NCBI GenBank assembly: GCA_023055425.1
Contig: JALGPY010000001.1
Location: 115,425,057 to 115,489,056 of the forward strand
Length of the DNA stretch: 64,000 nucleotides
Source: Linanthus parryae
Lineage: Eukaryota; Streptophyta; Magnoliopsida; Ericales; Polemoniaceae
Direction: 5' to 3'
Both the position numbers and the translations under genes were made by a program. The notes beneath the pieces are model-generated. The model was not told the origin of the DNA. It searched no databases and was given only the letters and a program-made list of their open reading frames with translations. How positions within the stretch are numbered: the stretch's first letter is position 1; each line of letters starts with the position of its first letter. Positions 1 to 33,715 of the stretch are shown piece by piece.

Positions 1-481
1 TCCTAGTCCATATATCATATGGTGTCTTTATGACTGAATTGGATGGAACATGGTTAATGGTAAAAGCTGCAGTCATTAGAGCATGTCCCCAAAATGATAT
101 CGGAAGATCTGTTTGAGACATCATAGATCGCACCATATCAAATAGCGTGCGATTCCTCCTCTCGGATACGCCATTCCATTGTGGCGTTTCGGGTGGAGTG
201 AGATGGGATACTATCCCACACTCTCTAAGATACTCATCAAAATCTTGGCTTAAGTATTCTCCTCCACAATCCGATCGTAGAGCCTTAATACTTTTACCAA
301 GTTGCTTCTCTACTTCATTCTTGAATTCTTTGAACAATTCAAAAGATTCGGATTTGGCCTTCATAAGGTATACAAATCCATATCTACTGAAATCATCAGT
401 AAATGTGATGAAGTAGGTGTAACCACCTCTGGCAGGCGTGGGGAACGGCCCGCATACATCGGTATGTATGAGTGCCAATAA
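1..481 (-). pseudogene. copia 1 integrase catalytic core (partial)
   Basis: The minus-strand frame is the retroviral-type integrase core. It shows the first catalytic Asp in an HTDV context near 460, the second Asp in SDCGGEY (other copies read SDRGGEY), and the Glu in NGVSERRN. A stop at 482-484 separates it from the upstream zinc-finger part in the same frame, so the polyprotein is broken. From 481 to base 1 I see no further stop. In an active element this part would join cDNA into the host chromosome. Confidence 0.85.
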
Positions 482-1929: not shown

Positions 1930-3547
1930 TTGGAATTCTACAAAACGAGAAATGTGCAATTTTAGTATTTTGAACAATTTAACTATATTTAATAATGGCT
2001 AGATCATCAAATATAGCTCCCACTATTTTTCTCGGATTAATAGCCCTCACCATTAATGCGAAAAATATCATAATATTTTCTAGTAGCTCCAAGAACCCTT
2101 TTCACTTCTTCTTGAGCTTGCTTTGGCAAGTCACCCAAGAATAGGTTATTTAGGTAGGAACCATTCCAATTGCATCCCATGCAACTCTTGGTCCAATTAG
2201 GTGAATAACTCTTTTATTCTTTGTCCATTGGATAACGCCTATTTGTCATGCCTCTAGGTTCATCAATCCAATTGAGTCTTACCCAGTTGCGTCCGACCCC
2301 TCGCTTCAACATACACACATTACTAGCTTGTGTCGTCCTCAACACATCATGGTAAATTAAAATTGCCTTGCTTTGGCAAGCCCGAATTTTAATAAACCTT
2401 GATTATGAAGGGTGTTTTGGCAAGAGAAGGCAAAACGCAATATTTAATTGAGGGATTTAATTTTCTTAATTTGTTTGGTTGATCCAATCAACATGAACTA
2501 CTTGTTTTGATTGGGAAATCCATAATACAAGACCATCCTTGTTTATTATTATCTTGTTAACGTTTTGCTAGTATCGCCATACACACAAAAATAAATAACA
2601 AGACATAAATAATAAACATCCACAAAATAAAAATTAAAAAAAAACGTGGCAGGGATATGGCCCCTAGACTAAGATATTATCAAGCCAATGATAATATCCA
2701 ATTTCCCTAAAAGCTCATCTCCATGTGCTCCACCATAGTCGCGCGCCTAGGGGGTGTCTTCTTTGTCTTTTGGCTTCTTTGGTCCTCCGGTCTTCTTCTC
2801 CATGCTCTTGGCTCTCATCTAAATTTTTTTAATTCTAGCCTAACATCTAGAATAAATAAATAATAAAAGCCTCACATGTCGAGGAGAAAAGACGACTCGC
2901 AGGCCGTAAAACCTAATTAATTATTACATTAATTTGATCAGCTCGCAGGCCGTAAACTAAACCACAAAGCAATAAACATCCACAATCCAAGGCCATATCC
3001 ATCCACCATACAACAAAGCACATAAAACAGTTAAAACCAATTTTTAACACGCTTATTTACTTTTAATTAGATTGGGTAATTAGGGTTACAACGGTCCAAG
3101 GGGTCCAACCTAAGCCTAGATCGAACCCCAAGGACCGCCACCCGGCCCAAGGCCGGCCGCCCCATGTGGCCCGCGGCCCTTGCTTGGGGCGCAAGGAAGG
3201 GGGCGGACGGCTAGGGTTTTGGCCTTAGCCCCCTTCCCTTCTTCCTTTTTTCCCAAGCATGGTTGTTTCCTTTTATGGATGTTTCCATAAAATTGTTTCC
3301 ATAATCGAAAACTCATTTTCAATCATGTGCCCCTGAACCCTAATTTTCAAGAACCCTATAATTCGCATCCCATGTGATTAAACTCACCAGTTCTAACATC
3401 CAATGTTAAATTAGATCTTGTTTATGTTGAATCAAATTCAATTTGCATATACTATGCCAATTATTTTCAGTTTTCGCGTAATAACAATAATACGGTGTAT
3501 AAACTGGCATCGTAACACATAAAATCATTTTATGCTCTACGACTTGT
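1930..3547 (-). other. copia 1 leader between PBS and gag
   Basis: About 1.6 kb of untranslated leader, collinear with 23871-25505 in copia 2 and, more loosely, 61123-62793 in copia 3. It contains a strongly GC-rich patch around 3130-3200 (runs of gcccggccc and ggccgg) within otherwise AT-rich DNA. A 68-codon minus frame crosses that patch (3116-3322) and has a counterpart in copia 2, but it resembles no known protein. I see no gene here. Confidence 0.7.
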
Positions 3548-3560
3548 GGCTCTAATACCA
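3548..3560 (-). promoter_or_regulatory. copia 1 primer-binding site
   Basis: The minus strand reads TGGTATTAGAGCC one base from the LTR end. This is the plant initiator tRNA-Met PBS (TGGTATCAGAGCC) with one C-to-T change. It is where the tRNA would prime minus-strand cDNA synthesis. Confidence 0.9.
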
Positions 3561-3561
3561 C

Positions 3562-4967
3562 TGTTGGGTTTTGACGTAGGTAACGCAGCGGAATAACAAA
3601 AATTTAATCCTACTCAAAGCCCACCACGGATCGTAAGGAGGAGATATCATAACATGATAAGCGACATAGTATTGTGTACCTTTTGGTTTGAGAGATCACA
3701 CGAAGACTGATGTCCTCGTCTCTACGCTTGATCCACGTCTAGAGGTGAGATCAAGATTCTTCCTTAAACAAGTGCTAGCTTGAACCGGAGGAAGAGGGAA
3801 GAAGGAATCAAGCAACGAGGTGACAAGTGGAGTGTTTCGGCCTCCTCTTTGGCGCCGACGGGAAGGGGGCAGACGGCCTAGGGGCGTGCGCCTCTAGGTC
3901 TTGTCTTGCTCTCTCTTTTGCTTTCTCCCACTCTCTTGTGTTATGTCTAATAACATTCAAATTAGTGGGAAGGAATCTAGAGCCTTCTTTATAAACTCCA
4001 ACAACTCCTTGTTGTTTCCATAAAAGTTCCCTTCCTTGCACAACTAGTCCTACTAAGTTTGCAAGGTGTTTCATAATGATCCTTCTTATTAATTAATCAT
4101 ATTAATTAATCTCAAATCTAGCTCTACTCTATTTGACGTGTGACCCCATAGGTTTCTACTTAGTTGGTAGTAACTTTTTACTAACATGGAGCGGTGTCTA
4201 GCAACACATCCATGCCACCCAACTAATAGAAATAGTCAGTGATCCCGATAAACCTCTTGTGCCCAATATATCATATTGCATTATCCCTTTGTCTCCATAT
4301 CCGGATTGGACACGAGACATAAATAGTCACACTCGTATGTCTAATCCATAGTTCCTCGATCCTGGGAATATGATTATGCGAGCAGATAACATCAATATCT
4401 CCATATTGATTTATCTGAGTCTGGCCAGATATTCAATAAGCCTCATCTCTCGAGTGGTCGGTATTTACTACCATTATGTGGGAGGGACAAATCCTATCTA
4501 CATCACTACGATCTCTAAGCTTGCTTCCTATCATGCCCGATAGCTATCTTTATAATTACCCAGTTACGGTGTAATGTTTGATAACATCAAAGCACAATAT
4601 TCCACAACTAGAGTATCTAGTGACTTCAAGTCTAAGGATTGCAATTATATTATCACTACGAGAAGCGATTGTGACTTGACATAATCTAATGTATCCTTCT
4701 CGTTGTGGGTCAATCCAGTATGCCATTACTCCTAATGCATATCCATGTGTTAGACTTGATATCTCCATATCAATCTACACACATACTAGTCTATATTTGA
4801 TCGTCCTATTAATCAATATAATGGACTAGGGATATTTAAGATAAACAACACATTGTATCTAAGGACTTCATTTTATTAAATATCACAATATATAATAAAT
4901 GAATATTATAGCCAAAAGCAATGCTCATACTAAATATAAGATTGCCTCTAGGGCATCTATTTCAACA
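3562..4967 (-). repeat. copia 1 5' LTR (1406 bp)
   Basis: Bounded by TG at the minus-strand start (TGTTGAAATAG) and CA at the end (AACCCAACA), directly before the PBS. It is collinear with the LTRs at 25520-26905 and, in part, 6970-8034. A TATA-like stretch is visible on the minus strand around 3985-4000 (complement of ttctttataaactcc). Short reading frames inside it are not conserved as proteins. Confidence 0.92.
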
Positions 4968-9640: not shown

Positions 9641-9645
9641 TTCCG
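9641..9645. repeat. TSD of the Tekay element (left copy)
   Basis: ttccg directly before the LTR end TGTAACACCCCC; an identical ttccg follows the other LTR at 22121-22125. It lies within the copia 2 integrase. Confidence 0.95.
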
Positions 9646-10251
9646 TGTAACACCCCCAAATTTTCATTACTAAAATTACGGGCGTGCCCTTCTCATGGAG
9701 AATCAACCACCATGATCAGGAGAAAGGATCTTTGCTTCGGATTCACAGAACACACTTTATTACATAAAAGTTCACAAGCCTTGTTCAGAGTTATTACAAA
9801 CCATTATATTACAAACAGCGGAATAATGAAATTACTACTTTTTTCAAGTGAGGTGATACTTCCACTAGTATGCGACGTCCCCATCCCCAACGTAGGCCTC
9901 TCCTGTGGTGGTTTTACAAAACAAGGACACCACAGTAAAAGTCAGTAAAAACTGAGAACGCATCACAACGCGTAAATCAGAGTGAGGCACATGTAAGTAT
10001 TAAAACAAGTTATGACATGTTCATTTATTCTAAAAATCAGTTTAGTTCTTTAATCGGGGAGATCCAGTACCAATAATCATATCCAGTGTGAACGGAGAAA
10101 TAATCCGCTCGTCCGAACCAATCTCACCTCAGCATCTAGACCTTAAGTGTCGACACCCCCTACGAGGGAAACTGTTGTCCCAAGAGAGTAGTACTAGAGC
10201 CTTACCCTGTGCTAATGCGCCCCAGGGGAACCATAGAGCCATCTTCGACTC

Positions 10252-10347
10252 AAGTCCCAAGCTTTGCTTGGTCAAACCATATTAAGTCCCAATCTTTGCT
10301 TGGTCAATCCATATCAAGTCCCAAGCTTTGCTTGGTCAATCCATATC
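10252..10347. repeat. 32-bp tandem repeat, three units, in the Tekay LTR
   Basis: Three 32-bp units beginning aagtccca (10252, 10284, 10316). Units one and three contain CCAAGC-TTT-GCTTGG, a small perfect hairpin. The same three units are in the 5' LTR at 19773-19868, so they predate the insertion. Confidence 0.9.
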
Positions 10348-11833
10348 AAGTCCCCGAGAGTTCATGTTTTCACTTTACGTGATTAGTAGCTTAAACATTC
10401 AGAAAAGTCTGATTATTATCATTTCTAAAATATCATCAAGTAGTGGAAATCACTTCTTCTCGAGTGACAAGTTCTCAAAATATTGAATTACAACATATGA
10501 AAGCACGGAGTTTTATTAAAGAAATGACATGTTTAGTAAACAAAGGTAAAGAGTAATCATAAGAAATACGTTCAAAATATTTAAAACTTAAGTCAAGACA
10601 AGTAGAGACATTATAGTGAAACACGCGTTTTGAAGAGTAAGGGTTGAGCCTACGAACTCACCTACAAGTTCCGGCGGTATTTTAGATGTAACCGACGTAG
10701 CCTTCGTCTAAGAACTCGGTGTCTACAAATAAGGATAAATCCTAATTAATAATGAATCGCTTAATATGCAAATGTCCTATAATGTCAAGCGGGTTGATTC
10801 TAGTTAATTATTCGGTGGTGACCTAGTCGGATTTTAATGATGTCCCTTAATTAAGTACTAAGATATTATTTATTTGTCAAAACGACTAATCCAAATTTAT
10901 TTATAAAAACACTATATTAATTATCAAATCTAATATGAATATTAATTTACTACTCACACTAATATTTATTTACTAACTACTAATCGTTATTTAATACACT
11001 AACATAAAATTAATACTTAGATATTTATAATGTAGGGTAGCTAGAAATGTAGTTGTACACTTACCTCCCCTAGACTCGTCAAATTCTCAAAAACATGAGT
11101 TGTTGCTAGTTCTAGAAAATACATTTACAACCCCCATTTGAAGAATAATTTTTATATGCATTTCTAACATTCCGTTTTCAACTAGTTCAACATGAATGAC
11201 TTCCGGGAGGTGTGAGAGTATGAATATGCAAGAACATGTAAAATGCGACGCGGGAAAATGAAGTTATACCGAGGCTCCGATGAAATGAGCGGTGGCCTAG
11301 CACGGGCTGTTTGACTTCTTCGGCTTGCGAGAATGTTTTTAAGAGAGTCCTTGGAGTGTCACGGAGTGGACGGTAGCAGCCGTGTCCCAAGTGGTGGTCG
11401 TTGGCGGAGTTGGTGATGAAGGTAGCTACTTGACGTTGCTAGTGTAGTTTTAGTTGGGTAACGATTCGGGATCCGTTTTGGCCTTTTTTGAACGTGGTTA
11501 AAGAATGAAAGTTATAGATAACAAGTAGAGGAATATTTAGGAGAAAAAGGAGGTCGTTTTGGAGCTAAAATGGAATATAACAAGAAAGAACAACACCGCT
11601 GCCCACTGGTGCTGTTCGGCTAGAGCAGTTTTAGCGCGGGGTGAATTCGGGCTCTGTTTTGACTCCTTTGGGTCGGGGCCAAAGAACGAATGTTTTAGAG
11701 TACAAGTAAAGGAATTTGTGGTTAAAATTTGGACCAATTACGAGTTGTAACGAAGGAGATACAGCAAGAACAAGCCGCTGTCCAGCAGCCGCTGCTACTG
11801 TTGCGGGTTGCCGCTTGTTGCGGCTGTTGGGGC

Positions 11834-12741
11834 TGCTTCGAGTGGTTGTTTTGGCCGGTTCTTTGCTGCTAAAAGATTCTATGAATATCAGGGAGTGAGT
11901 GTGTGACTTGAGGGGTGGTGGGTATGGTTCTCTTTTTGGTTTGAGATGAGAGAGAGAGAGCTTGAGTTGGTGGTTATGGAGTTTTCCGGCGATGAGCTAT
12001 GGTGTTGTTGGGTGTGTGGGAGATGGCAAGGATGATGAGCTGATTATGAAACTGAGAGGGGTTGTAGCTATGTTGTTGTTGTGAAATGGAGCTACGGGAG
12101 GTGCCTATTTATAGAGGGCAAAGAAGAAGTATGAAGAAGATAAAGAAGTAGAAGAAATGATGAAGAAGATGGAAGAATAGTGTTATTTCTGTTTCATCAG
12201 ACGGCATGATCCAAATATTACGGAAATGATTGCCGTCTCTATATGTGATTGTGGCTGAAATTTTGTGACGAAGATAACATTCTGGATTGCTTCGAGTGGT
12301 TGTTTTGGCCGGTTCTTTGCTGCTAAAAGATTCTATGAATATCAGGGAGTGAGTGTGTGACTTGAGGGGTGGTGGGTATGGTTCTCTTGTTGGTTTGAGA
12401 TGAGAGAGAGAGAGCTTGAGTTGGTGGTTATGGAGTTTTCCGGCGATGAGCTATGGTGTTGTTGGGTGTGTGGGAGATGGCAAGGATGATGAGCTGATTA
12501 TGAAACTGAGAGGGGTTGTAGCTATGTTGTTGTGGTGAAATGGAGCTACGGGAGGTGCCTATTTATAGAGGGCAAAGAAGAAGTATGAAGAAGATAAAGA
12601 AGTAGAAGAAATGATGAAGAAGATAGAAGAATAGTGTTATTTTTGTTTCATCAGACGGCATGATCCAAATATTACGGAAATGATTGCCGTCTCTATATGT
12701 GATTGTGGCTGAAATTTTGTGACGAAGATAACATTCTGGAT
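11834..12741. repeat. 454-bp tandem duplication private to the 3' LTR
   Basis: 11834-12287 is repeated almost exactly at 12288-12741; the join is ...ctggat|tgcttcg. The 5' LTR has a single copy. Each unit includes a (GA)n tract, the TATA-like box and about 125 bp of A-rich gaagaag sequence. Confidence 0.93.
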
Positions 12742-13028
12742 TTCTTAGAAAATAATCGGGTGTGATATTATCGGTATGTCGTGATAAAAGTCACCACGTA
12801 GTATATGTGACATTATAGTGATATACACACTATTATATATAAGTGTGATATATAAGTATATACACGTGTCTATATGGTACATACTCTATTCTAATTTTAT
12901 TAGGACATAGTCACCTTGCAATAGTACCACAAAATATTAAATATAGATGTCAGTTTATACACAATATTGCTATAAACATACATATTTATTCCTAATATAT
13001 ATATATATTTAAATTTCGGGTTGTTTCA

Positions 13029-13044
13029 TCCTTCCCTCCTTAAG
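13029..13044 (-). promoter_or_regulatory. Tekay polypurine tract
   Basis: The minus strand reads CTTAAGGAGGGAAGGA immediately before the 3' LTR start TGAAAC. This is the expected plus-strand primer site. Confidence 0.85.
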
Positions 13045-13194
13045 ATCAAGCGTCGTCCTCGAAGCGCAAAAGTAAGATCTCATGGCTGTACTATGAATAC
13101 TAAATGAAAAACGTGTAATATCATGTATTAACTATGTAGTGAATAAAATATGATGACTAAAAGTGTAACTAAAAGTGTGAAGGTCTCCTCCCCC

Positions 13195-14052
13195 TTAAAG
13201 GAGTGACGTCCTCGTCACTCGAGTGTATACCTGTTCAAACAAGTGGGGATATCGTTGTTTCATGTCAGCTTCAGCTTCCCATGTGACGTTCTCCATCAGG
13301 TGACTGTTCCATAACACTTTGACCAACGTGGTTGACGTGGTACGAGTCTTTCTATTCTTGGTGTCTAGGATTTTGACAGGGTGTTCTTCGTCAGTATGAA
13401 TAGGGTCCAATTCTAAGGGTTCGGGATCTAAGATATGTGATGGGTCTGGAATGTACCTCTTAAGTTGAGACACGTGAAAAACGTTATGGACTCGACCCAG
13501 ATTAGAAGGAAGATCTAAACTGTAGGCTACTTCTCCTATCCTATCCTGGACTTCGTAGGGACCGATGAACTTGGGACTGAGTTTTCCCTTCTGATTGAAA
13601 CGAGAAACTCCCTTGGTTGGTGATACCTTCAGGAATACTTTGTCTCCAACCTTGAACTCCACGGGTCTTCGTTTCTGGTCTGCATAAGACTTTTGTCGAT
13701 CCTGGGCCGCTTTCATCCTCTGTTGAATGATTCTGACCTGACTCATCATCTCCTCAATCATTTTTGGTCCCAACACTAGCGTCTCGCAGATGTCGTTCCA
13801 GCACAGGGGTGTCCTACATTTCCGCCCATAGAGTGCCTCATAGGGTGCCATCCCTATAGTTGTGTGGTAACTATTGTTGTACGAGAACTCTATCAATGAT
13901 AACCGGTCTACCCAAGAACCTTGGAAGTCCATGACACATGCTCGCAACATATCCTCCAGTGTTTGTATGGTTCGTTCCGTCTGTCCGTCAGTAGCTGGGT
14001 GGAAATCGGTACTGAACTTCAGCTGAGTGCCTAAGGCTTTCTGTAATGCTTC
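13195..14052 (-). pseudogene. Tekay integrase C-terminal half with chromodomain
   Basis: Minus frame continuing the integrase after a premature TGA at 14053-14055 (where related copies have Trp). It contains the catalytic Glu in a DGQTER context, the YNNSYH segment, an integrase C-terminal FKVGDKVFLKV region and a chromodomain-like tail (VKIL...VLW...TWE, roughly the last 60 residues). Chromodomains of chromoviruses are thought to direct integration towards heterochromatin. The frame ends at 13195. Confidence 0.88.
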
Positions 14053-14682
14053 TCAGAAAATGTGAGAGAAAGTTTGGGTCTCGTCAGACACGATGTCCTT
14101 TGGTACACAATGGTATCTAACGATATTCTTGATGTACGCGTCTGCTCGTTGCTCCATATCCCAAGTGTCCTTCATTGGGATGAATCTTGCCGTCTTTGTC
14201 AATCGGTCAACTACAACCCAAATCTGATTTAAACCATTTTTTGTCACTGGCAAAGCAGTCACAAAGTCCATTGATATCGAATCCCATTTCCACATGGGTA
14301 CTTCCAAAGGTTGCACCAAACCTCCTTTCCTCTTGTGTTCAAATTTCACTTTTTGGCACGTGAGACATCGGGCTACGAATTCTGCAACCTCGTTCTTCAT
14401 TCTTCGCCACCAAAACTGCTTTTTCAAGTCCTTATAGAACTTATCTCCTCCTGGATGTACGCAGTATGGCGTGTTGTGTGCTTCTCTCATTAACCGTTCC
14501 TTGACCACCTTACACTTTTGGGGCACACACCACCTCTCCTTGTACCTTATGCTCCCATCGTCGTGTATTCGGAAGCCCTTGGTTGAACCATCCTCGATTT
14601 TCTTCCTGATTCTTTCAAGTTTCACATCTCCGGGTTGTCCCTTTCTGATCTCCTCAAAGATGTCTAGTGTGGCTACCAAATA
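14053..14682 (-). pseudogene. Tekay integrase N-terminal half
   Basis: Lies between two in-frame stops (TAG at 14683-14685 and TGA at 14053-14055), same frame on both sides. Counting from the TTG at 14679, it has the HHCC finger (H68, H75, C105, C108) and the first two catalytic Asp (D138 in SMDF, D199 in IVSDE). After D199 the usual RDPRF is changed to ETQTF, so the core is damaged as well as truncated. Confidence 0.88.
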
Positions 14683-17451
14683 CTATAGCACGCCTTCCCT
14701 TGCCTCCTGCTGACGGAATTCAATGCCCGATTTCTGAATATCAACTCGCAACTTCTTTGGTAAACTCCTCAACGCATTTATGGTATGGCTTGTCTTCCTG
14801 CTTAATGCGTCGGCAACTACATTTGCCTTCCCTTCATGGTATTGGATTTGTAGATCGTAGTCCTTAATCAAATTCAACCATCTTCTTTGCCTCATGTTCA
14901 AATCCTTTTGGGTGAACAAATACTTAAGGCTTTTGTGATCGGTGAAAATCTTACATGTTGCGCCATAAAGGTGGTGTCTCCAAATTTTCAAGGCGTGGAC
15001 AATTGCGGCTAGCTCTAGTTCATGAGTTGGGTAATTCTCCTCATAGGATTTTAGCTGCCGTGAAGCATATGCAATCACCTTCCCATCTTGCATTAGCACA
15101 CATCCTAACCCATGCTTCAAAGCATCACTATAGACCTCAAACTCCCTCGACTCAGATGGTAGGGTCAGAATAGGTGCTGTAGTTAGCTTTTCCTTCAGGG
15201 TTTGGAAGGCTTCCTCACATTTCTCATCCCAATGGTATTTTGTGGTTTTCTTCATTAGATTGGTCAATGGTCTGGCTATTTTGGAAAAATCCTTCACGAA
15301 TCTTTGGTAATAACCTGCTAGTCCCAAGAAACTACGGATATCTGTTGCACTCTTGGGTCTTGGCCAGTCCCTAACTGCGGTTATCTTTCCTGGGTCTACG
15401 GAGATTCCCTCCTTAGATATTATGTGTCCCAATAAAGGTACCCTATCCAGCCAAAATACACACTTGAAAAACTTAGCATACAACTGTTCTTGCCTCAGGG
15501 TTTGCAAAACAGCTCTAAGGTGTTCTTCGAGTTCTCCCTTTCCCTTAGAGTAAACCAAAATATCAACAATGAAAACTACCACAAAGCGGTCTAAGTAAGG
15601 TTTCATTACCCGGTTCATCACATCCATGAATACAGCAGGTGCATTGGTTAGACCAAAAGGCATAACAGGGAACTCATAATGCCAATACCTGGTCCTAAAG
15701 GCAGTCTTAGGGATGTCCTTCTCGGCTACCCTTAACTGGTGATAACCTGATCTTAAGTCGATCTTGGAAAAGGTATCGGCTCCTTGTAGCTGGTCAAAGA
15801 GGTCATCGAACCTCGGGAGTGGGTATCGATTTTTGACAGTCACATTATTAAGCTCCCTGTAATCAATGCACAGTCTCAAACTACCATCCTTCTTCTTAAC
15901 AAACAAGACAGATGCTCCCCATGGTGAAACACTCGGTTTGATATACCCCTTATCCAACAATTCCCTTAGTTGTTCCTTCAACTCTTCTAGCTCTACTGGT
16001 GCCATTCTGTAAGGTGCTTTGCAGATCGGTCCTGTCCCTGGCACAAGGTCAATGGTAAACTGCACGGCTCTTTTAGGTGGCATTCCTGGGATTTCGTCGG
16101 GAAATACATCGGGAAACTCATTAAAAATTGGGATGTCCTCAAGTTTCATCATCCCCATACTATCATCTCGGACAGAACAGAGATAGGCTTGGTGTCCCTT
16201 ACTCATGGCTTTGACTACAGAAAGTGCAGACACAATTTTGACATTGAGTTTCTCGGTGATTCCTATGTGAGAGATTCTCTTACCCTTTGGTCCTCTTAGG
16301 CTTACCTTTTGGTTACGACAATCAATATGAGCATGGTGCTTTACTAGCCAGTCCATTCCTAGAATAACATCTAGGTTTTCTAGGTCGAAGAGGATAAGGT
16401 CAGTGGGTATCTCACATTCTTGGATGGTTATAACTACTCCCCTAAAGATGGAATCACAGTTTACTACCCGTTTTGCAGGTGTAGCTATAGACACAGGGTT
16501 CATATGAGAGGATTGAAGTCCTAGTTTTCTAACAAAAGTTGACGATATGAAAGAATAGGATGCCCCACTATCAAAGAGTACGTAAGAAGGAGTGTTGTGG
16601 ACTAAGAATGTACCAGTAACCACGTTTGTCGCAGTGTTTGCTTCCGCCTGGTTCATGGCATATATTTGTCCGGCGCTCCTCTGGTTTCCATTTCCTTGGT
16701 TTTTAGTTCCATTTCCAGTAGGTTGCGCATTCCGGTTGTTGCTTCCTGCAGCTGCATTGTATTTGTTCCCTTGGGGTCTGCCTGCCTGATTGTTGTAGTT
16801 CCCACGATTGTTTCCGCCAAATTGGTTATTGTTATTCCCACGGTTGCTTCCTCCGTATTGGTTGTGGTTGGCTTGGAATTGATTCCCATTTTGGTAGTTT
16901 GGGCGAGGGTTTCCCTGGTTCTGTCTTAGGTATACGTTCCCTCCGAACCTGCCATTCTGGATATCAGCCTTTTTCGCGTTACACTCGAACGCTCGGTGGC
17001 CACGCTTCCTACAGTAGAAACATTCAACTGTCTTTCCTTCACAGTCAACTCCGGGATGGTCCCTACCACACTGTTTAAAATTGTAGTGACGAGCTCGCCC
17101 GTTGGCGTCAGTGTTGTGGTTCCCGAAGTTATTGCGGTTCATTCCACGGTACCCCTCGGTTGCGTTAGGCTTGAACCTCTTGTTAGCATAGTTGATTTCC
17201 TTAGAGTTGTTCCCTTCTTCATCCTTCCTCTTGTTTGCTCGATTCCCTTGCATCTCCTCGATTTCTCCGATGGTAGCTACTACCTCGTACGCTTCTCTTA
17301 CGGTCGCATTCCTAGCAGCAACTACGTCCCTCTGGATGCTATAGCGAAGCCCTTTTGTGAAACGTCTGATCCTCAAGTCCTCCGTGTATACAAATCGGCT
17401 GGCAAAGCGTGACAATTCTATGAACTTGTTGTAGTATTCCGACACTTTCAT
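14683..17451 (-). pseudogene. Tekay gag-protease-RT-RNase H polyprotein (defective)
   Basis: A 922-codon minus frame. Residues 1-65 are the end of the Retrotrans_gag region ([14 protein letters not shown]). An Asn/Gly-rich linker surrounds a CCHC knuckle (C144, C147, H152, C157). Protease has DSGA with D294. RT follows with the motif [10 protein letters not shown]. RNase H begins FEVYSDA (D776). The RT active site reads FIVD instead of FIDD: residue 629 is Val (codon 15565-15567, GAT to GTT), removing a metal-binding Asp. The frame ends at a TAG that interrupts the link to integrase. The start Met is internal to gag; upstream sequence is frameshifted. Confidence 0.92.
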
Positions 17452-17714
17452 GTTGCCTTGTTTCAGGACTGGAAATTCGGTATGTGCTTCCTAAAGTGTA
17501 GCCAAACTAGGTCGGTGGTCAGACATTCTTAGTCGAGAAGTTTCAGTGGTGTTGAATTAAGGAGACAAGCTTTCAACGCGCTCTTCTTAGTTCGCGGGTA
17601 TTGTCCCCTCAACAGTTCTACTCATCGCCTATATTAGACTTTTGTCCCGGGTAAAGGTATCACACTCTTCCTTGGACTCATTCTCTAAGTCACTACAAAC
17701 CATTAGTAGTTTCC
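17452..17714 (-). pseudogene. Degraded gag N-terminus of the Tekay element
   Basis: Minus-strand translation upstream of the intact gag part gives FPVLKQGNM in frame, then a TAG. A gag-like WLHFRKHIP segment lies in another frame, so a frameshift plus stops separate the gag N-terminus from the rest. Further upstream I find no gag homology. Confidence 0.6.
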
Positions 17715-18176
17715 ATGTCCGAGTCTCCTACAAGGACTCCTCCTCCTTCTCCGTCTTCATGGTCCTTGGCTCCCCCAAGCCCCTCGGTGTCTGTACCTGA
17801 GCCTGAACCTGGGCTTATAATTTCGGGGCCATAATTTACTCCCGATGTTCCATCTTTCCATCAAGATTCATCGGGTCCTTATCCTTGGCTTTGCGGTGTC
17901 CCAGTGCTGTCGTCAACCCCTCTTTCGGTTATGAGGGCATCTTCAACTCCAGCATCTCGACCAGTGGATCAATCACGCCCTCTTGCTCGCGCATGCTCGA
18001 TACTTATCTCGGAGGAGATTCACCGTCACCTAGGGAATTTGGGACGACTTCTCGGGTTTCGCAATGATACTCAAGTTATTGAGTGGCTTTTTCGGAAAGC
18101 TCGTCCTGCTATTCTAGAGTTAGGTCCTCGTAGAAGAGAGACTCCTAATGAAGGGTCAAAAAATGCTCGTTCCTAG
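17715..18176 (+). pseudogene. Opposite-strand ORF with TCP-like (class II) helix-loop-helix
   Basis: Plus-strand frame from ATG 17715 to the stop ending at 18176 (153 residues), broken only by TAA at 17832-17834; from ATG 17904 it is open for 90 residues. The first 40 codons are Pro/Ser-rich. Residues about 98-135 match the TCP domain of plant transcription factors without gaps: a helix I ending LLGF, a short loop, and helix II with VIEWLF then ARPAILEL. LGF...EWL...AI.EL is the class II (CYC/TB1) pattern. The basic DNA-binding part before helix I looks weak. It lies antisense to the element, between gag and the 5' LTR. Recognition is by eye; function is inferred only. Confidence 0.6.
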
Positions 18177-18574
18177 TCAATCAATGTAATGGCTGTACTC
18201 TGGGTTGTATCATTTTGTCTCATGTGTCTCCAAGTGTAATGGTCTTAACTATGTATTTTTTCCCATTCTTGAGGGAGTAATGAATCATTAGTCCTAAGTC
18301 AGGTTACCAGAAAAAAAAGAAACATTTACAAATGACCTAATTACCCCCTCTCAACGGCTATAACTGTGAAAAGTAAATACAATTTTTTTTTACCTCGATC
18401 TCCAACGGTCAGTCGTCCCTCCAACAGCTAGAAATGGCCAAAAGTCACTTTTACCCTTTGTCATATCCGTGTAACGGCTAGTAGGGAGGTTAGAAACGTA
18501 AATTGATGCTTTTTAAATTTCTATAAATAGAAGCTCCATAACATACTACTTTCATACCTCAAACATATTTAGAA
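18177..18574 (+). promoter_or_regulatory. Candidate plus-strand promoter: AACGG motifs and TATA box
   Basis: TCCAACGGTCA at 18401-18411 matches the mitosis-specific activator (MSA, three-repeat Myb) consensus YCYAACGGYYA exactly. Two further AACGGCTA sites (18353, 18473) match it with one mismatch each. TATAAATA lies at 18522-18529, 46 bases before the ATG at 18575, leaving space for a short leader. The arrangement looks like a plant promoter pointing away from gag, towards the 5' LTR. Activity is not shown by sequence. Confidence 0.5.
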
Positions 18575-18781
18575 ATGTCTTCGGAGAGTGTTATGGCTAT
18601 TATCACACTGATCATAGCCGTGTACGTGATAGTCCTCTTTGCGCGACTTAGCCTCTCCTTCATCAATCAGCCTTTGCTCCCTTTTCTTTTGGTTTGGTTG
18701 TTTGGGTTCATCCTTATGTTGGTAGTGTACCATAGGGAAATGTATGAAACAGCAATGTATGAAAGGATGAAGTACCAGTGA
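18575..18781 (+). CDS. Small two-transmembrane protein, opposite strand to the Tekay element
   Basis: 68 residues, unbroken, starting at the first ATG after the TATA box. Two hydrophobic stretches (about residues 7-29 and 36-52) are separated by a polar turn with Asn-Gln-Pro, and the tail is polar with repeated Met-Tyr-Glu. I recognise no family. It shares orientation with the TCP-like frame and sits between it and the 5' LTR. It could be a real accessory ORF or a chance frame; the promoter context and membrane profile favour the first, but only modestly. Confidence 0.4.
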   Translation: MSSESVMAIITLIIAVYVIVLFARLSLSFINQPLLPFLLVWLFGFILMLVVYHREMYETAMYERMKYQ

Positions 18782-19152
18782 TGTAACCATTTCCTACATT
18801 TTCTCCCTAATTATGAATAAAAGTCTTTTTTTTCATGTCTTTGCAATGATCCAACAAAATTTAGAGAAGAAAGTCTTGAATCACAAGTTTATCAAAACTG
18901 CACATTACGAGTTCAAACAGTATGAACACATGAAGAGATCATATATAGCACAATATATACTTGAAGATATGCCTCCAATCGTAAGAACAAGCGCATGCTT
19001 TTCACACTAACCCCTTTACCCCCCGACTTTACTTGTTTTTAAATCAGGTTTTATCTTGCCCTAGTCCATTTTTGAGAAAAAAATATTGAGTTTCATTTTC
19101 GGAAATCGATTTCCACTTTAATTAGGGTGAATTAAACTTTGAATCCGAAGGT
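18782..19152. other. Tekay leader next to the PBS
   Basis: About 370 bp of A/T-rich leader. A 65-codon plus frame (18813-19010) is present but has no recognisable features. No other structure seen. Confidence 0.6.
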
Positions 19153-19164
19153 GCTCTGGTACCA
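19153..19164 (-). promoter_or_regulatory. Tekay primer-binding site
   Basis: The minus strand reads TGGTACCAGAGC two bases (AT) after the 5' LTR end. It matches the tRNA-Met PBS with one change (TGGTATCAGAGC). Confidence 0.9.
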
Positions 19165-19166
19165 AT

Positions 19167-22120
19167 TGTAACACCCCCAAATTTTCATTACTGAAATTAC
19201 GGGCGTGCCCTTCTCATGGAGAATCAACCACCATGATCAGGAGAAAGGATATTTGCTTCGGATTCACATAACACACTTTATTACATAAAAGTTCACAAGC
19301 CTTGTTCAGAGTTATTACAAACCATTATATTACAAACAGCGGAATAATGAAATTACTACTTTTTTCAAGTGAGGTGATACTTCCACTAGTATGCGACGTC
19401 CCCATCCCCAACGCAGGCCTCTCCTGTGGTGGTTTTACAAAACAAGGACACCACAGTAAAAGTCAGTAAAAACTGAGAACGCATCACAACGCGTAAATCA
19501 GAGTGAGGCACATGTAAGTATTAAAACAAGTTATGACATGTTCATTTATTCTAAAAATCAGTTTAGTTCTTTAATCGGGGAGATCCAGTACCAATAATCA
19601 TATCCAGTGTGAACGGCGAAATAATCCGCTCGTCCGAACCAATCTCACCTCAGCATCTAGACCTTAAGTGTCGACACCCCCTACGAGGGAAACTGTTGTC
19701 CCAAGAGAGTAGTACTAGAGCCTTACCCTGTGCTAATGCGCCCAAGGGGAACCATAGAGCCACCTTCGACTCAAGTCCCAAGCTTTGCTTGGTCAAACCA
19801 TATCAAGTCCCAATCTTTGCTTGGTCAATCCATATCAAGTCCCAAGCTTTGCTTGGTCAATCCATATCAAGTCCCCGAGAGTTCATGTTTTCACTTTACG
19901 TGATTAGTAGCTTAAACATTCAGAAAAGTCTGATTATTATCATTTCTAAAATATCATCAAGTAGTGGAAATCACTTCTTCTCGAGTGACAAGTTCTCAAA
20001 ATATTGAATTACAACATATGAAAGCACGGAGTTTTATTAAAGAAATGACATGTTTAGTAAACACAGGTAATGAGTAATCATAAGAAATACGTTCAAAATA
20101 TTTAAAACTCAAGTCAAGACAAGTAGAGACATTATAGTGAAACACGCGTTTTGAAGAGTAAGGGTTGAGCCTACGAACTCACCTACAAGTTCCGGCGGTA
20201 GTTTACATGTAACCGACGTAGCCTTCGTCTAAGAACTCGGTGTCTACAAATAAGGATAAATCCTAATTAATAATGAATCGCTTAATATGCAAATGTCCTA
20301 TAATGTCAAGCGGGTTGATTCTAGTTAATTATTCGGTGGTGACCTAGTCGGATTTTAATGACGTCCCTTAATTAAGTACTAAGATATTATTTATTTGTCA
20401 AAACGACTAATCCAAATTTATTTATAAAAACACTATATTAATTATCAAATCTAATATAAATATTAATTTACTAATCTTCATCCTAATCACACTAATATTT
20501 ATTTACTAACTACTAATCATTATTTATTACACTAACATAAAATTAATACTTAGGTATTTATAATGTAGGGTAGCTAGAAATGTAGTTGTACACTTACCTC
20601 CCCTAGACTTGTCAAATTCTCAAAAACATGAGTTGTTGCTAGTTCTAGAAAATACATTTACAACCCCCATTTGAAGAATAATTGTTATATGCATTTCTAA
20701 CATTCTGTTTTCAACTAGTTCAACATGAATGACTTCCGGGAGGTGTGAGAGTACGAATATGCAAGAACATGTAAACTGCGACGCGGGAAAATGAAGTTAT
20801 ACCGAGGCTCCGATGAAATGAGCGGTGGCCTAGCACGGGCTGTTTGAACCTCTTCGGCTTGCGAGAATGTTGTTAAGAGAGTCCGTGGAGTGTCCGGAGT
20901 GGAAGGTAGCAGCCGTGTCCCAAGTGGTGGTCGTTGGCGGAGTTGGTGATGAAGGTAGCTACTTGACGTTGCTAGTGTAGTTTTAGTTGGGCAACGATTC
21001 GGGATCCGTTTTGGCCTTTTTTGAACGTGTTTAAAGAATGAAAGTTATAGATAACAAGTGGAGGAATATTTAGGAGAAAACGGAGGTCGTTTTGGAGCTA
21101 AAATGGAAGAGAACAAGAAAGAACAACACCGCTGCCCACTGGTGCTGTTCGGCTAGAGCAGTTTCGGCCGGGGTGAATTCGGTCTCTGTTTTGACTCCGT
21201 TGGGTCGGGGACAAAGAACGAAAGTTGTAGAGTACAAGTAGAGGAATTTGTGGTTAAAATTTGGACCAATTACGAGTTGTAACGAAGGAGATACAGCAAG
21301 AACAAGCCGCTGTCCAGCAGCCGCTGCTACTGTTGCGGGTTGCTGCTTGTTGCGGCTGTTGGGGCTGCTTCGAGTGGTTGTTTTGGCCGGTTATTTGCTG
21401 ATAAAAGATGCTATGAATATCAGGGAGTGAGTGTGTGACTTTAGGGGTGGTAGGTATGGTTCTCTTGTTGGTTTGAGATGAGAGAGAGAGAGCTTGAGTT
21501 GGTGGTTATGGAGTTTTCCGGCGATGAGCTATGGTGTTGTTGGGTGTGTGGGAGATGGCAAGGATGATGAGCTGATTATGAAACTGAGAGGGGTTGTATC
21601 TATGTTGTTGTGGTGAAATGGATCTACGGGAGGTGCCTATTTATAGAGGGCAAAGAAGAAGTATGAAGAAGATAAAGAAGTAGAAGAAATGATGAAGAAG
21701 ATAGAAGAATAGTGTTATTTTTGTTTCATCAGACGGCATGATCCAAATATTATGGAAATGATTGCCGTCTCTATATGTGATTGTGGTTAAAATTTTGTGA
21801 CGAAGATAACATTCCGGATTTCTTAGAAAATAATCGGGTGTGATATTATCGGTATGTCGTGATAAAAGTCACCACGTAGTATATGTGACATTATAGTGGT
21901 ATACACACTATTATATATAAGTATGATATATAAGTATGTACACGTGTCTATATGGTACATACTCTATTCTAATTTTATTAGGACATAGTCACCTAGCAAT
22001 AGTACCACAAAATATTAAATATAGACGTCAGTTTATACACAATATTGCTATAAACATACATATTTATTCCTAATATAAATATATATATATATATATATAT
22101 TTAAATTTTGGGTTGTTTCA
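19167..22120 (-). repeat. Tekay 5' LTR (2954 bp)
   Basis: Same ends as the 3' LTR. Single copy of the segment duplicated at 11834-12741; minus-strand TATA-like box at 21638-21646, about 475 bp from the LTR start. It has a long (AT)n run near 22077-22100 and a small insertion near 20473 relative to the 3' LTR. Confidence 0.95.
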
Positions 22121-22125
22121 TTCCG
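22121..22125. repeat. TSD of the Tekay element (right copy)
   Basis: ttccg, identical to 9641-9645. Confidence 0.95.
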
Positions 22126-28539: not shown

Positions 28540-29118
28540 CTCAAATTGTCATTCTCGGTCACAAGTCATACCCTATGCCTAAAGTTCTCACACTCCTCGA
28601 TTTTCCAAATTCAAGCTTCTTTTGATTGCCCTTTCTCAAATTTTCATTTTTTTTTAATTTTCTATATAATTTTTTTTTTAACAAGTTCTACTCTATATGC
28701 AACGGCCGACGCGAAAGAAAAAAAAAATTACTCTACACAATTTAAACTTTTAATGGGTGTACTCAATTATGTTAAAGTGCAAACAGTATGTAAACTAATC
28801 TACACAATACGACAATATAAGTAAAAGCTCAACACAAACCACTGTGTCTACACACAATACAACCTAGACACATCTTACATGTAACTGGCTATGCAAGACA
28901 CATGGCTAGTAAACAAATAAATCACCCCCACACTGAATGCTTTGTTGTCCTCAACAAATTTAGAAATTAAACATAGGACTCAACAATCAATGTGTAGGGC
29001 CAATAGATGAGATGGAGCTGACATATACAAAATAAACACATAATTTTAGCTAAAGGAAGAAATACTCACAACCACCTCGAGGGCGGGGACGAAATCCACT
29101 CCAAGCAATCCCCAAGCA

Positions 29119-29376
29119 CTAATGGTGCCACCGTGCTCCTATATAGTCAGTGTGTTCTCTCACACCGGGGTCGACTGCCTCCTCTGCTAAAATCCATGTC
29201 TGAAGAATCCCCAACTCACATGCACGAGTCCCTATGACGGTCATGTGTGCCATGGCACACCGGGGTAGATTCTCCCATAATCTGCTCAAATATGTCACTT
29301 GGAAACAAATGTTAGTCCCTCTCTCTCTCATCTCTCCAAAATAAATAAACAAAACACACACAACTGTAAAATGCAC
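29119..29376 (-). other. Short frame conserved in the three LARD units
   Basis: Minus frame of 85 codons, with counterparts at 34295-34537 (80) and 42042-42302 (86). It lies downstream of the main LARD frame and after the gggaggcaaccca motif that often follows coding sequence in Athila/Tat-type elements. No recognisable domain. Conservation between copies here mostly reflects recent amplification, so coding is doubtful. Confidence 0.2.
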
Positions 29377-29432
29377 TCCCTAAACTAATGCAATTAATAG
29401 GTTGGGTTGCCTCCCAACAAGCGCCTTGTAAT

Positions 29433-30329
29433 TTAAGGTCGACGACCCGACCCAGTTACCTCAAATATGATTAAGGTGGTTTTTTCTTTCCACTTTTTCT
29501 TCTTCCACCATTGCTTCTCCCTTTTTCTCTTCTCAAGTAAGCATGCATGGGATGCGTATGGCGCAACCAAATTGTAGAAGACGGCATGAAAAAATTTCTT
29601 CTTTATGTGCTTCCAATTCATGAGAATCGTCATCATAACGATTTCAACAATAAGCTCAAGTCTCCCATGTAGTGGAAATCGATTTACGCCTTCTTTGCCC
29701 GTTTTCTCAATTTGCAATATCTTCATTGAAATTTCAAGCGACAACTCATAAAGTATGAAAGTTTGAGTATCTTCATCCCCTTCGTTTGAAACACCCAAAT
29801 CATCAACAATTTCAATCTCGACATCTTTTGTATCTTCAATGAGCTCAAACGTGAGCGGCTCCAACAAATTTGCAACCGGAAAGTCAAGATCATCAATATT
29901 AATTCTATGAAGAATGCCATCAATCTCACCAAAAATTTCATCATGCTTGACCCTCATACTTGACTCGATCCATGATTCTATGTTTGGACAACTGGAGATG
30001 CACAATGGCTCATCATCCTCTTCTTTAAGCGTTGGAAAGGTTGGAGCATCCTCTTGAATTGAATGGAGAACAAATTGTGCGTCCATGTGTGTTGTCTCAA
30101 TTCCCATTCTTGTTGCTCGTTGTCGCCATTCTTCCACATTAGGAATCATCTCCTCAAGCATGCAACCAAGGAAGAAGAGTAACTCAGTGGGAGGGGTTGA
30201 GTCATTAGGACGAAGGGTATAACGTTGTAACTCCATGGCTACCCTCTCTCTAATGTTCACGAATTCCTCATATGCAAGGTTGCATGCTTCAAATATGCTC
30301 GCAAAACGGCGATATTTCTCATCCTCCAT
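29433..30329 (-). CDS. LARD unit A reading frame, acidic protein of unknown function
   Basis: 298 residues from the Met at 30329 (the frame is open further up through the PBS into the LTR, which I take as non-coding). Order: a helical N-terminus (FASIFEACNLAYEEF), a segment PPTELLFFLGCMLEEM, a very acidic middle rich in Glu/Asp, and a basic Lys/Arg/Trp-rich C-terminus. No zinc knuckle, protease or polymerase motif. This copy is intact but has lost six codons (after EEFV) present in units B and C. It could be a remnant gag or a LARD-specific protein; I cannot assign it. Confidence 0.5.
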   Translation of the reverse strand: MEDEKYRRFASIFEACNLAYEEFVNIRERVAMELQRYTLRPNDSTPPTELLFFLGCMLEEMIPNVEEWRQRATRMGIETTHMDAQFVLHSIQEDAPTFPTLKEEDDEPLCISSCPNIESWIESSMRVKHDEIFGEIDGILHRINIDDLDFPVANLLEPLTFELIEDTKDVEIEIVDDLGVSNEGDEDTQTFILYELSLEISMKILQIEKTGKEGVNRFPLHGRLELIVEIVMMTILMNWKHIKKKFFHAVFYNLVAPYASHACLLEKRKREKQWWKKKKWKEKTTLIIFEVTGSGRRP

Positions 30330-30450
30330 GCTTAGAGTTGAATGCCTGCACACATAAAATCTCAAGTAATGCTGTGAGGCAATAAGAATAGAAAATAACA
30401 AAAACAAAACCCTAAAGCTAATAATTCTAACTAATTCAACCGAAGTCCCT

Positions 30451-30463
30451 GGCAACGGCGCCA
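30451..30463 (-). promoter_or_regulatory. LARD unit A primer-binding site
   Basis: Minus strand TGGCGCCGTTGCC, complementary to the 3' end of plant tRNA-Asp, six bases from LTR A. Confidence 0.88.
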
Positions 30464-30469
30464 AAAACT

Positions 30470-31913
30470 TGACACGATTCAACCACAAGTGTATGGTGGT
30501 CGTGTGTAGTAATATCCGGTAAACCGGGTTGTCGAACCCAAGAGAATTCTTGTAAATTAATTAGAATTTCTCAACCTCATGTGGGCACAACGCTTAGTTT
30601 GTTGTACTAGTTCTAGTAAAATGAAAAGGACAATGTTCTCAATTAACCGAGTGAATTGATTCACGATTAACAAAGAATACTTTATAAGGTTACTAATACA
30701 AGGGCAAAATACTGGGAATTCTCGTTGGGATCACTAGGGATGATGTGAGTCGTGTTTTGATTCATGAAAAACCAATATTTCTTCTATTATTAATCTAGCA
30801 CTACACAACTCACCGAGTTACCAAGCAAATTGTCTATGCCTAAAATTAACTTGAACCGAGTTACCAAGTCTAAACCAATTTTAAGCACGCATTACGTGTA
30901 TTATTCTACTTACGATCCTAACCAACACTACCGAGTTACCAAGTAATGCTATAAGCTAGGTAAATAGTTTGATTTACCGATCAGGAATCACGGAGTTACC
31001 ACGCAAATCCCAATTATGATCATTCCTACGTTAGCTACTCGCAAGAAAGATAGAAATTTAACACAAACTATTAATAATAATAGAAAAACACAATTGATAA
31101 AGTTCCAAACGTGAATCATAATCTCAAACATCACGTTCACACCAAACCCTAGCTACCACATGAGAATCCCCAGCAATAAGAAGTTTAGCTACTAGTTGAC
31201 ATGATCAAAATACAAAGTTTAACGATCATCAAACAAAAACTAAAGAAGAGAAGAAGTGAGAAATCAAACGAGGACTCCAAAGCTCCCAAGCACACTTCCA
31301 AAGCTCCAACGTAGGTAGAATGACTCATAGACACGGACTACTAGGTCTAAAACAAGTCTCCAAGCTTACATCTTTCAAAATATTACAAAATAACCCCGAA
31401 AATCTGAGTTTTCCGTTCTGTTCGCACGAACAGAAAAGTGTTCGCACGAACACCCTATTTCCAGGAACCCTTTGTTGTTCCTATTTTTTTCAGCTTGTTT
31501 TAGCTCCAAAATTTTGGCTAAAGTCTTTTTGTTCACACGAACAAGAAGTTGTTCACACGAACACTCTTACCAACATCATTTTTTTGTTCTTTCTTCTTAC
31601 TTCTTCCTTCATACTCTTCATTCCCAAGCATCCTTTGAGCTATTCCAAAGTTCCAAAGTTCGCCTCCAATCCAACATCCTCGCTCCAAACTCCCGGTTCC
31701 TGAAATCCACAACACTAAAACATACCGGAAGATCAAATTATACAAATATAGCATAAAATATGTGAAGAAGCGCCCGGATTCAACATTGAAGATCAAATGC
31801 TCAATTATGTTCCAATTATCAAAACTTGGCCTAAAACACATGTAAATGCATCGGAAACTATGCAAAACGACAAGTAATCACGTAAGAATATAACTCCAAT
31901 TATGGAGTTATCA
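30470..31913 (-). repeat. LARD LTR A (1444 bp)
   Basis: Minus strand TGATAACTCCA...CGTGTCA. Its first 26 bases form a hairpin (ATAACTCCA / TGGAGTTAT). It contains four TGTTC(G/A)CACGAACA palindromes (31419, 31439, 31530, 31550) and four ACCGAGTTACCAAG-type repeats (30812, 30855, 30930, 30990). It is flanked by a PPT on one side and a PBS on the other, so it joins two units. Confidence 0.9.
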
Positions 31914-31926
31914 ACTATCCCCACAC
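31914..31926 (-). promoter_or_regulatory. Polypurine tract before LTR A
   Basis: The minus strand reads GTGTGGGGATAGT directly before TGATAAC. Confidence 0.75.
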
Positions 31927-33715
31927 TTACCATTTGCGAGTCCCGAGCAATCTATCCAAAACCGGCCATAATCTCAACACTTTCTTCCCAACAAACCGTG
32001 GTACTATCCAAGCGACTTTGCATACTATTCGAAACACCATTTGCATACAAACCATAACTAGCCGACTCGACACAAACGACGACTCAATAAACAATTTGAC
32101 GATGCAAAAATATGATGCAATGCAATCTAGACTCGATCCTACACAAACACATATATTCGTAAGCACAAATTTTTTTTTTTTTGGGTGAGATTGGGAAATC
32201 TCAATTAACTCAAATCGGTTCTCATGGAGTGATGAAAAATCAAAGGACAAGGTATGATTTGCAACTAAACTCGACAACAAGAATTTCCCTTAGTTGGTAT
32301 AGAAAGCCTAGCTTTACTAAGTGTAAGAATAACCTACCTTTTCGCGTGTGCCGATAAATAAGAGGCTACGCTAGGCTAAGCCACATTCAAGGTCCGAGCT
32401 TCTATTCCGCTAACGGGTTAGAATGTAGAGGCTTAGGGACAAAAGGATAATCATGTAGTAACAAATCCTAAGTGTCACATTCTCACGTTAAAACCCACAT
32501 CTCACACACCCTCACCACGATGATAGGAACCGCAACCCGAAACTCACCATCTCCGGCCCTCGATCCCCTCAAACCCCGGTACAATAACGATTTCCGTGGC
32601 CACCGTCGTGAAACATGCATAAAATGAACATCGCCGTTAATGAAATAGTTGCTTCCACCACTCGGTCTTCATTAAGCTCAAACTTTATCCTTTATTTCAT
32701 CTCTCCTTTTTTTCTCTCTCTTTTTTTTTGGTTTTGTTTTTTTCAAATCTCTCAAATTTCTGCACAACTTCTACAATGTATATCTCAAGTTGTCTTCCAA
32801 GTGTCAAGCCAAACAAAAACGTTAAGGGGAGACAGTAAACAATCCAATGAATATATATCACAAGTGAAATCCATCTCCCCCTACTCAATGAAATACACGG
32901 TGCCACCAAACAAAGCCGCAAACAAATTCAAGTACATGTATGGGGATGGAGTCGTCAAAAGCTCAATCTCAATGTCCTTAGTCAAAAGTCGACATCCCCA
33001 CACTAGAATATACCCATGTCCCCTCTCAAGTAATCAAAACAATGTAAGTCTCGTGCCTAATCCAACCAAACCTCCTACACCACGATGAATGAGATTTGGT
33101 ACCTAGCACGATCCACCAATTAAATCACCCAACCCAATTTGTGTGTATTAGATGTCACGCACTCACGGCTCTCCACAACTGTGTCCATGATGTAACAACA
33201 TGGAACACCGCCACACCTAAGTGTGCAAGCCGACTCACTCACCCTCGCATCCCCTCGCAAATATCAAATGAAGTAAAAGCGATCATGTAGGACTCACATA
33301 AGTATATCATGAAGTACTCCCTCATCGAACCCCCTCAACTACGACCCCCTCGTGACGCACCAAAATGGTGATCCTAAACAATATGTGATTAGAGCCAAGA
33401 ATCGTCACCCTAGGTCAAAAGGTTATCAAAGAATCCAAGTTTCAAAGCCGGGTTTTCTAATGGTCCTACAAGGTGAGATCTAAAAGCAGTGAGTGCTCTT
33501 ATACACATCCTCGCACAGCTGTTTCGTGTGCCACTACGAGGCGGGTTGGCGACTACCTAAGACGTACACATGAATGTTTGGCTTGTTTAGCTGACACCTA
33601 GCTCAACTCTTGTAAGAAAACAAGGCACACACTTTAGATTTGAAAATCATTTAAGTGTCTTAAAATAGGCAGGTATTCACGCAAAAAAAGTCTCTCTATA
33701 CATACTAAGGGGAAC
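31927..33715 (-). other. LARD internal non-coding region, unit B
   Basis: 1.8 kb between PPT and the region conserved at the other end of the unit. Long T runs (32165, 32705) and scattered short frames with no protein likeness. Collinear with 37127-38877. No gene seen. Confidence 0.7.

Follow-up and report, generated by a model that had tools for sequence, protein, structure and literature searches.

A stretch of 64,000 nucleotides of the Linanthus parryae genome (contig JALGPY010000001.1, positions 115,425,057 to 115,489,056; hereafter the window) contains a long terminal repeat (LTR) retrotransposon which, judged from its sequence, resembles the Tekay lineage of chromoviruses. Antisense to this element, between gag and the 5' LTR, lies a reading frame that may be considered the decayed copy of an accessory gene held by at least two subfamilies of the element. 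Its product has a TCP-type domain without the ribbon arginine and likely titrates host TCP transcription factors off DNA, a reading to which a probability of about one half is assigned. The window copy itself is a marker of the family and not a working copy, since its TCP-like gene is interrupted by a stop codon and the front of its gag is gone.

The antisense frame, its one internal TAA and its open TCP-like part stand as described in an initial annotation made from the letters of the window, which had named among its checks a profile search, a structure prediction, the presence of the frame in sibling elements, and a ratio of nonsynonymous to synonymous substitution rates (dN/dS) away from 1. 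The open piece (17835-18173, 113 amino acids) is flanked by the 5' end of gag on one side and by the primer binding site and 5' LTR on the other. When it was searched against Pfam, the sole match was TCP (PF03634; residues 58-103, 27.7 bits, E = 4.5e-6), a score above the curated cut-off of 23 bits that places the piece in the TCP domain family. Eight shuffled versions and one reversed version served as controls, and none of the nine matched any Pfam family. Among solved structures, with E-values of up to 10 admitted, only two entries were matched (E = 0.025 and 0.027), both of TCP15. AlphaFold2, run on the single sequence, predicted two helices with block predicted local distance difference test (pLDDT) scores of 87-95 across residues 51-90. 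A Foldseek search with that model placed TCP chains in the top 23 of 33 rows, with weak E-values, and with a second AlphaFold2 model they took the top 25 of 49 rows. From these models, both of the monomer, the TCP-like domain is predicted to fold as a ribbon-helix-helix. The helix-loop-helix of the initial annotation holds as a match to TCP proteins; the available text of PMC10049435 presents the TCP domain as a ribbon-helix-helix and not as a classical basic helix-loop-helix.

The sibling data come from the genome of the window (1.51 Gb), which was searched with the 113-amino-acid piece. A total of 247 candidates were returned, of which 150 were scored; all 150 match, one being the window copy. 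By a hand count, a stop codon falls inside the match in 28 of these rows and in none of the other 122. The matches belong mainly to two groups, subfamily A at approximately 80-98% identity and subfamily B at approximately 56-65%. Sixty-eight copies were read (8 returned by the search and 60 picked by hand down the list), and 39 of them have an intact gene of 151-156 amino acids (~153) that starts with MS and ends with ARS or a near variant. All 20 intact siblings of a sample alignment matched Pfam TCP at E <= 10, 13 of them at E <= 0.001, and none matched a different family; the bit score of one such sibling was 25.1. A TATA-like sequence, CTATATTAGA, is present at -86 to -88 in 34/39 intact copies, inside the spacer from which gag and the TCP-like gene diverge. 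Within the window, no second copy of the frame was detected by blastn or tblastn.

A comparison of the TCP-like gene between subfamilies (24 intact A copies, 15 intact B copies) gave a mean dN of 0.240, a mean dS of 0.586 and a dN/dS of 0.41, with p = 3e-5 in a Fisher test on mean counts. The presence of the frame in siblings and its dN/dS, which is not near 1, therefore agree with what the initial annotation had proposed. The five alternative frames gave ratios of 0.74, 0.95, 1.03, 0.43 and 1.11; the frame with 0.43 is antisense, and all five are closed by stop codons in 39/39 intact copies. Across eight A-B pairs, the frame had either no indel or a single one, 6 or 9 bases long, against many indels of other lengths in the flanks. 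A number of points weigh against a selected gene. These pairs were picked among intact copies so that frameshifts were excluded beforehand, the nucleotide identity of the frame is not higher than that of its flanks, dN/dS within subfamily B is 0.60, the carboxy terminal tail has an A versus B ratio of 0.92, and under neutral simulation the frame survives without a stop in 2.5% of runs. The equal conservation of frame and flanks would also suit a role for the antisense RNA alone, in which double-stranded RNA regulates the element and the frames are passengers, as suggested for antisense units of retrotransposons in the available text of PMC7264820. This explanation is quite improbable given the openness specific to the frame, the dN/dS values of 0.41 here and 0.24 for a second accessory gene, and a likeness at the protein level to a third element family in which the genes lie in the sense orientation. 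Taken together, the sequence comparisons point to a functional accessory gene, one that is open in many copies and under selection against amino acid change.

Three other sources of the frame were considered and rejected. A chance match is disfavoured by the shuffled controls, the siblings and the selection. The frame is not a shadow of gag on the opposite strand, as gag starts 336-354 bp away from the divergent ATG of the TCP-like gene in the siblings L052 and L002 and the antisense frames are closed in 39/39 copies. With respect to the insertion of a DNA transposon into the leader, a repeat search of positions 17400-19200 found just three inverted pairs, all weak and 13-19 nucleotides long, none of which flanks the two genes.

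According to the available text of PMC10049435, TCP dimers contact DNA through two strands at their centre together with basic amino terminal loops. The ribbon arginine, present in 8/8 host TCPs (as IRM, MRL or VRL), is absent from 39/39 intact A and B copies and from 6/6 family C frames that are long enough to align (2/8 end too early); L, M, P or I stands in its place. The residues that align with the ribbon, in most copies ILIS, VMLS or IILP, are largely hydrophobic, and the profile matches listed for the family begin at position 20-24, past the basic region. The A and B frames, with profile starts of 23-24 where listed, thus lack both features of a DNA-binding TCP, a basic region and a ribbon arginine. 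The initial annotation had noted a weak basic region and had guessed at dimerization without DNA binding; the former is borne out by the profile and the latter is strengthened by the missing arginine. Alternatively, a ribbon without arginine could read another sequence such as the LTR or leader of the element itself, and the DNA-binding proteins NikR, MazE and CdbA do appear in the Foldseek list, ranked under the TCP rows. With the basic region outside the profile matches and the ribbon residues mostly hydrophobic, altered DNA binding is considered improbable.

The affiliation with class II TCPs given in the initial annotation is unsupported as stated. Class II TCPs are distinguished by a basic region that is four residues longer and by an R domain. 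The nearest solved relative of the window frame, TCP15, is a class I TCP, and on 47 residues family C groups with class I with a support of 82, A and B being placed apart. For some of the A and B frames, the best-scoring host domains are of class II, along approximately 40-50 residues; the highest identity of A and B frames to TCP15 and eight host sequences is 50%, along 26 residues.

Family C was identified when the Pfam TCP model was searched across the genome, where 360 candidates were found and 150 scored, 148 of them at E <= 0.01. Besides full-domain host genes, they include many matches whose alignment to the profile begins at position 19-24, and some of the latter belong to the third element family (loci at G000:C68:121188700-121194300; L080, L085, L086). 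The family C protein begins with MSESPTRTPPPSPSSW or nearly so, as do those of A and B, and a Pro/Ser-rich amino terminus is common to the element families. Over a span of 48 residues, five family C frames are 44-50% identical to TCP15 and host class I TCPs with no gap in the alignment, and a sixth matches at 66% across 35 residues. The Pfam TCP scores were 37.4 and 37.6 bits for two copies of the main gene and 18.5 bits, under the cut-off, for an upstream paralogue. A family C protein was then used as a genome query, with the best 150 of 534 candidates scored. The matches listed include three class I TCP genes of the host (E 1e-9 to 1e-7) as well as B and A frames, which align at near full length with 33-39% identity (E 1.5e-9 to 2.4e-4), and A and B are therefore tied to TCP proteins independently of the first hidden Markov model match. 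As judged from these alignments, family C links the gene set to class I TCPs. At two family C loci, the TCP-like genes lie sense and downstream of a different gag (PF03732, E = 3.8e-13 in L085), and the same membrane gene follows them, open in one locus and with a stop codon in the other. At least 15 places, counted by hand, have three TCP-like matches in a row on one strand.

The genome search also returned TCP matches of other kinds. A different repeat (L077, L078, L084) bears a plain class II TCP fragment, RVHLSVGTTIQLYGLQDRLGYDQPSKAVEWL or nearly so, that is probably a captured host fragment. Two dense clusters of TCP domains are located at G000:C90:8900542-9081164 and G000:C1:114355284-114787610, the latter approximately 0.6-1.1 Mb from the window; many of the clustered matches are full-domain and some have stop codons, perhaps representing tandem host TCP-like genes or pseudogenes.

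Fragments in other repeats and the common capture of genes by LTR retrotransposons, as stated in the available text of PMC13317346, raise the question of whether the A and B frames are a recent chance capture of a functionless host TCP fragment. This was already disfavoured and is hardly credible given the low identity of A and B to TCP15 and the host TCPs, the intact genes under selection against amino acid change in two subfamilies, and the near-full-length architecture held in common with family C.

The TCP-like gene is accompanied by a second accessory gene, not reported in the initial annotation, which encodes a predicted membrane protein of 68 amino acids and is at full length in 40/68 copies. 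Its A versus B dN/dS is 0.24, a value obtained from 33 A and 16 B frames of at least 55 amino acids, some with altered ends, after L061 with its longer frame was dropped. The protein has no Pfam match above the cut-off, and a tblastn search of the window for a second copy found none except one match at chance level (E 0.26). Sites resembling the mitosis-specific activator (MSA) element were counted on both strands of the 64 kb with at most one mismatch to the consensus, and four of the 11 in the window fall in one 131-bp segment upstream of this gene. Among the 40 full-length copies, four such sites are found upstream in 35, three in 4 and two in 1; TATAAATA is 53-54 nucleotides upstream of the ATG in 37, and AATAAA follows the stop codon within 60 nucleotides in 38. 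Its TATA box, four MSA-like sites and AATAAA give the frame the appearance of a compact gene whose promoter is of the mitosis type. The AACGG core is bound by MYB3R factors (PMC9730800, in the text available). In the promoter of the membrane gene, four A copies share 89-92% identity with two C copies and 77-83% with four B copies. Since A is closer here to C than to B, a transfer of the gene set from one element family to another, or a recombination, seems to have followed the split of A and B.

The features of the window copy are collected in Table 1. The element is bounded by 5-bp target-site copies, TTCCG, at 9641-9645 and 22121-22125, and its LTRs are 97.3% identical across 2,660 aligned bases. 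A duplication of approximately 454 bp at 11834-12746 occurs only in the 3' LTR, the two LTRs being otherwise approximately 97% identical. By its pattern, the primer binding site is presumably of the initiator tRNA-Met type. Pfam identified gag, protease, reverse transcriptase, RNase H and integrase domains, and the chromodomain is weak (Chromo, 18.6 bits, under the cut-off of 25.1). Complete gag proteins of siblings open with MSAARRSAQMEELL or similar. The element was inserted into an older element, judged by eye from open reading frames (ORFs) only to be of copia type, which has an unsplit second copy at approximately 5-4967; the nested region covers 5-26905. Elsewhere in the window, 28540-44836 consists of a unit of approximately 5.2 kb in two full copies and one partial copy at 96-97% identity, bearing related ORFs of no named family on the minus strand (29433-30560, 34614-35306 and 42698-43504), and 56917-58324 is a piece of a second, related pol with 50-74% protein identity in two segments.

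Table 1. Features of the Tekay-like element and its accessory genes, in window positions.
Feature	Position	Strand	Basis or remark
LTR retrotransposon, Tekay-like chromovirus	9646..22120	-	LTR pair, ends read directly, pol and gag domains
3' LTR, internal duplication of ~454 bp	9646..13028	-	
gag (front deleted) and pol frame	14683..17490	-	
TATA-like CTATATTAGA, candidate promoter of TCP-like gene	17629..17638	+	86 nt upstream of ATG
TCP-like accessory gene, decayed	17715..18176	+	ATG 17715, TAA 17832-17834, TAG 18174-18176
TCP domain: ribbon remnant, helix I, loop, helix II	18006..18143	+	PF03634 profile 23-70; AlphaFold2/Foldseek; basic region unmatched
Four MSA-like sites	18350, 18401, 18420, 18470 (18350..18480)	+	Mitosis-type promoter elements, AACGG
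TATA box TATAAATA	18522..18529	+	
Second accessory gene, 68 aa, two hydrophobic stretches	18575..18781	+	Predicted membrane hairpin
AATAAA, candidate poly(A) signal of 68-aa gene	18816..18821	+	
Primer binding site TGGTACCAGAGC	19153..19164	-	Read in sequence; pattern found in many siblings
5' LTR	19167..22120	-	

The loss of the front of gag is not peculiar to the window. Among the 65 copies in which gag is matched, the TCP-like ATG is separated from the capsid region by approximately 708-771 bp in 59 and by 225-226 bp in six, namely the window copy, L018, L019, L028, L037 and L038. From the two distance classes, the loss in the window (17490-17715) is therefore an inherited deletion of approximately 0.5 kb. 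The short-gag copies have nonetheless spread, and the TCP-like gene is intact in three of the six (L018, L028 and L037).

Relatives of the TCP-like frame were found neither in viral contigs nor in prokaryote genomes, sets from which plant repeats may be missing. A set of 5.8 billion proteins gave seven candidates, none at E <= 10, and a further search of it gave no candidate; unannotated plant repeats may be missing there as well. A piece of gag-pol used as a query returned 2,173 proteins, many of those listed being from named plants, and no viral contig, an absence that says little for plant repeats.

With respect to mechanism, the accessory gene would descend from a host class I TCP gene captured long ago, and its antisense transcription would start in the intergenic region between gag and the TCP-like gene. 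A dominant-negative partner is the simplest mechanism because the dimer part remains while the ribbon arginine and basic region are gone. The lost arginine presumably matters for DNA contact in the TCP-like protein, which would pair with host TCPs, most likely of class I, to form dimers incompetent for DNA, and the binding of host TCPs to GGNCCCAC DNA would be lost through the accessory partner. The membrane gene may be expressed in the mitosis phase by way of MYB3R factors. Class I TCPs control cyclins and endoreplication (PMC10049435, in the text available), and the element would thereby shift cells to a condition favourable to its own replication or to its transmission into daughter cells.

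The main rival to the titration of host TCPs is that the protein acts on the element itself, forming its own dimers and serving as a chaperone, a nuclear adaptor or a regulator of gag-pol expression. The gene is beside gag and divergent from it, with the short distance between start codons given above for L052 and L002, and conserved segments are found outside the TCP part, MSESPTRTPPPSPSSW at the amino terminus and NEGSQNARS at the carboxy terminus. Regulatory or nuclear roles have also been proposed for antisense accessory ORFs of plants in the available text of PMC7264820 and PMC11963269. A role on the element leaves unexplained why the dimer part of a host regulator was kept and the ribbon arginine lost, and is regarded as rather unlikely. 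A wider version of the titration reading, offered tentatively as possible and not as probable, is that the host-derived TCP protein without the arginine and the two-helix membrane mini-protein with its MYB3R-type promoter form a mobile set, antisense in one LTR retrotransposon family and sense and tripled in another, that seizes the TCP/cell-cycle switch as a plant counterpart of HBZ.

HBZ is a bZIP protein of human T-cell leukemia virus type 1 (HTLV-1) and is unrelated in sequence to the TCP-like protein. The resemblance is that of an antisense retroelement gene with a nuclear regulatory product; HBZ is named in part of PMC11963269. Among plant elements, antisense accessory ORFs are also present in Grande, Retand, RIRE2 and PvRetro13, with a possible nuclear role and, for Grande, a reported promoter of its own (available text of PMC7264820 and PMC11963269). 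In the same texts, these ORFs differ in being located between pol and the 3' LTR and in having a TRP28 domain (Retand), an SMC domain (PvRetro13) or no domain; most antisense accessory ORFs are of unknown origin with functions undetermined (PMC7264820, in part). The Tekay elements of sunflower and grasses likewise have an extra conserved 5' gene in hundreds of copies; for sunflower Tekay group 2, this is an accessory ORF of approximately 400 amino acids without a known domain in 500/523 elements (available text of PMC11728184). That ORF is sense, as its label ORF(+) indicates, whereas the TCP-like gene is antisense, encodes approximately 153 amino acids and is joined by a membrane gene. The term TCP is absent from the main text of PMC11728184. 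It is also absent from the main text of PMC9289625, which in its available part names extra domains carried by elements from a set of 25,565 consensus sequences representing 121 angiosperms and has its full domain chart in a supplement. No TCP-domain gene in an LTR retrotransposon was found described in the open-licence literature, supplements excluded, nor was an open-licence paper found that pairs Tekay with TCP domain. Accessory ORFs are thus common in plant LTR retrotransposons, and what differs here is the place or orientation, the recognizable domain of a host regulator and the linked membrane gene. Extra ORFs in Ty3/gypsy elements were reportedly surveyed by Steinbauerova et al. in 2011.

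Compared to class I TCPs (PCF type, such as TCP15), the two-helix dimer part is common to both, most plainly in the ungapped alignments of family C, and the TCP-like gene differs in its missing ribbon arginine, its unmatched basic region and its residence in a retrotransposon. Among host genes, microProteins and helix-loop-helix proteins without a basic region have kept the dimer part and lost the part that contacts DNA. By analogy, the same parts would be kept and lost in the TCP-like protein, which is retrotransposon-borne and whose pairing is putative.

One accessory ORF can thus be traced to a named family of host regulators, with the dimer part kept and the ribbon arginine lost. From this follows a testable prediction, that the TCP-like protein binds class I TCPs, which are controllers of cell proliferation. 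TCPs are known targets of pathogen effectors, and if the prediction is true, an antagonist carried by a mobile element would join the effectors that target them. The linked membrane gene with its mitosis-type promoter and the presence of the gene set in two families of elements together suggest that plant retrotransposons can carry modules directed against the growth control of their host.
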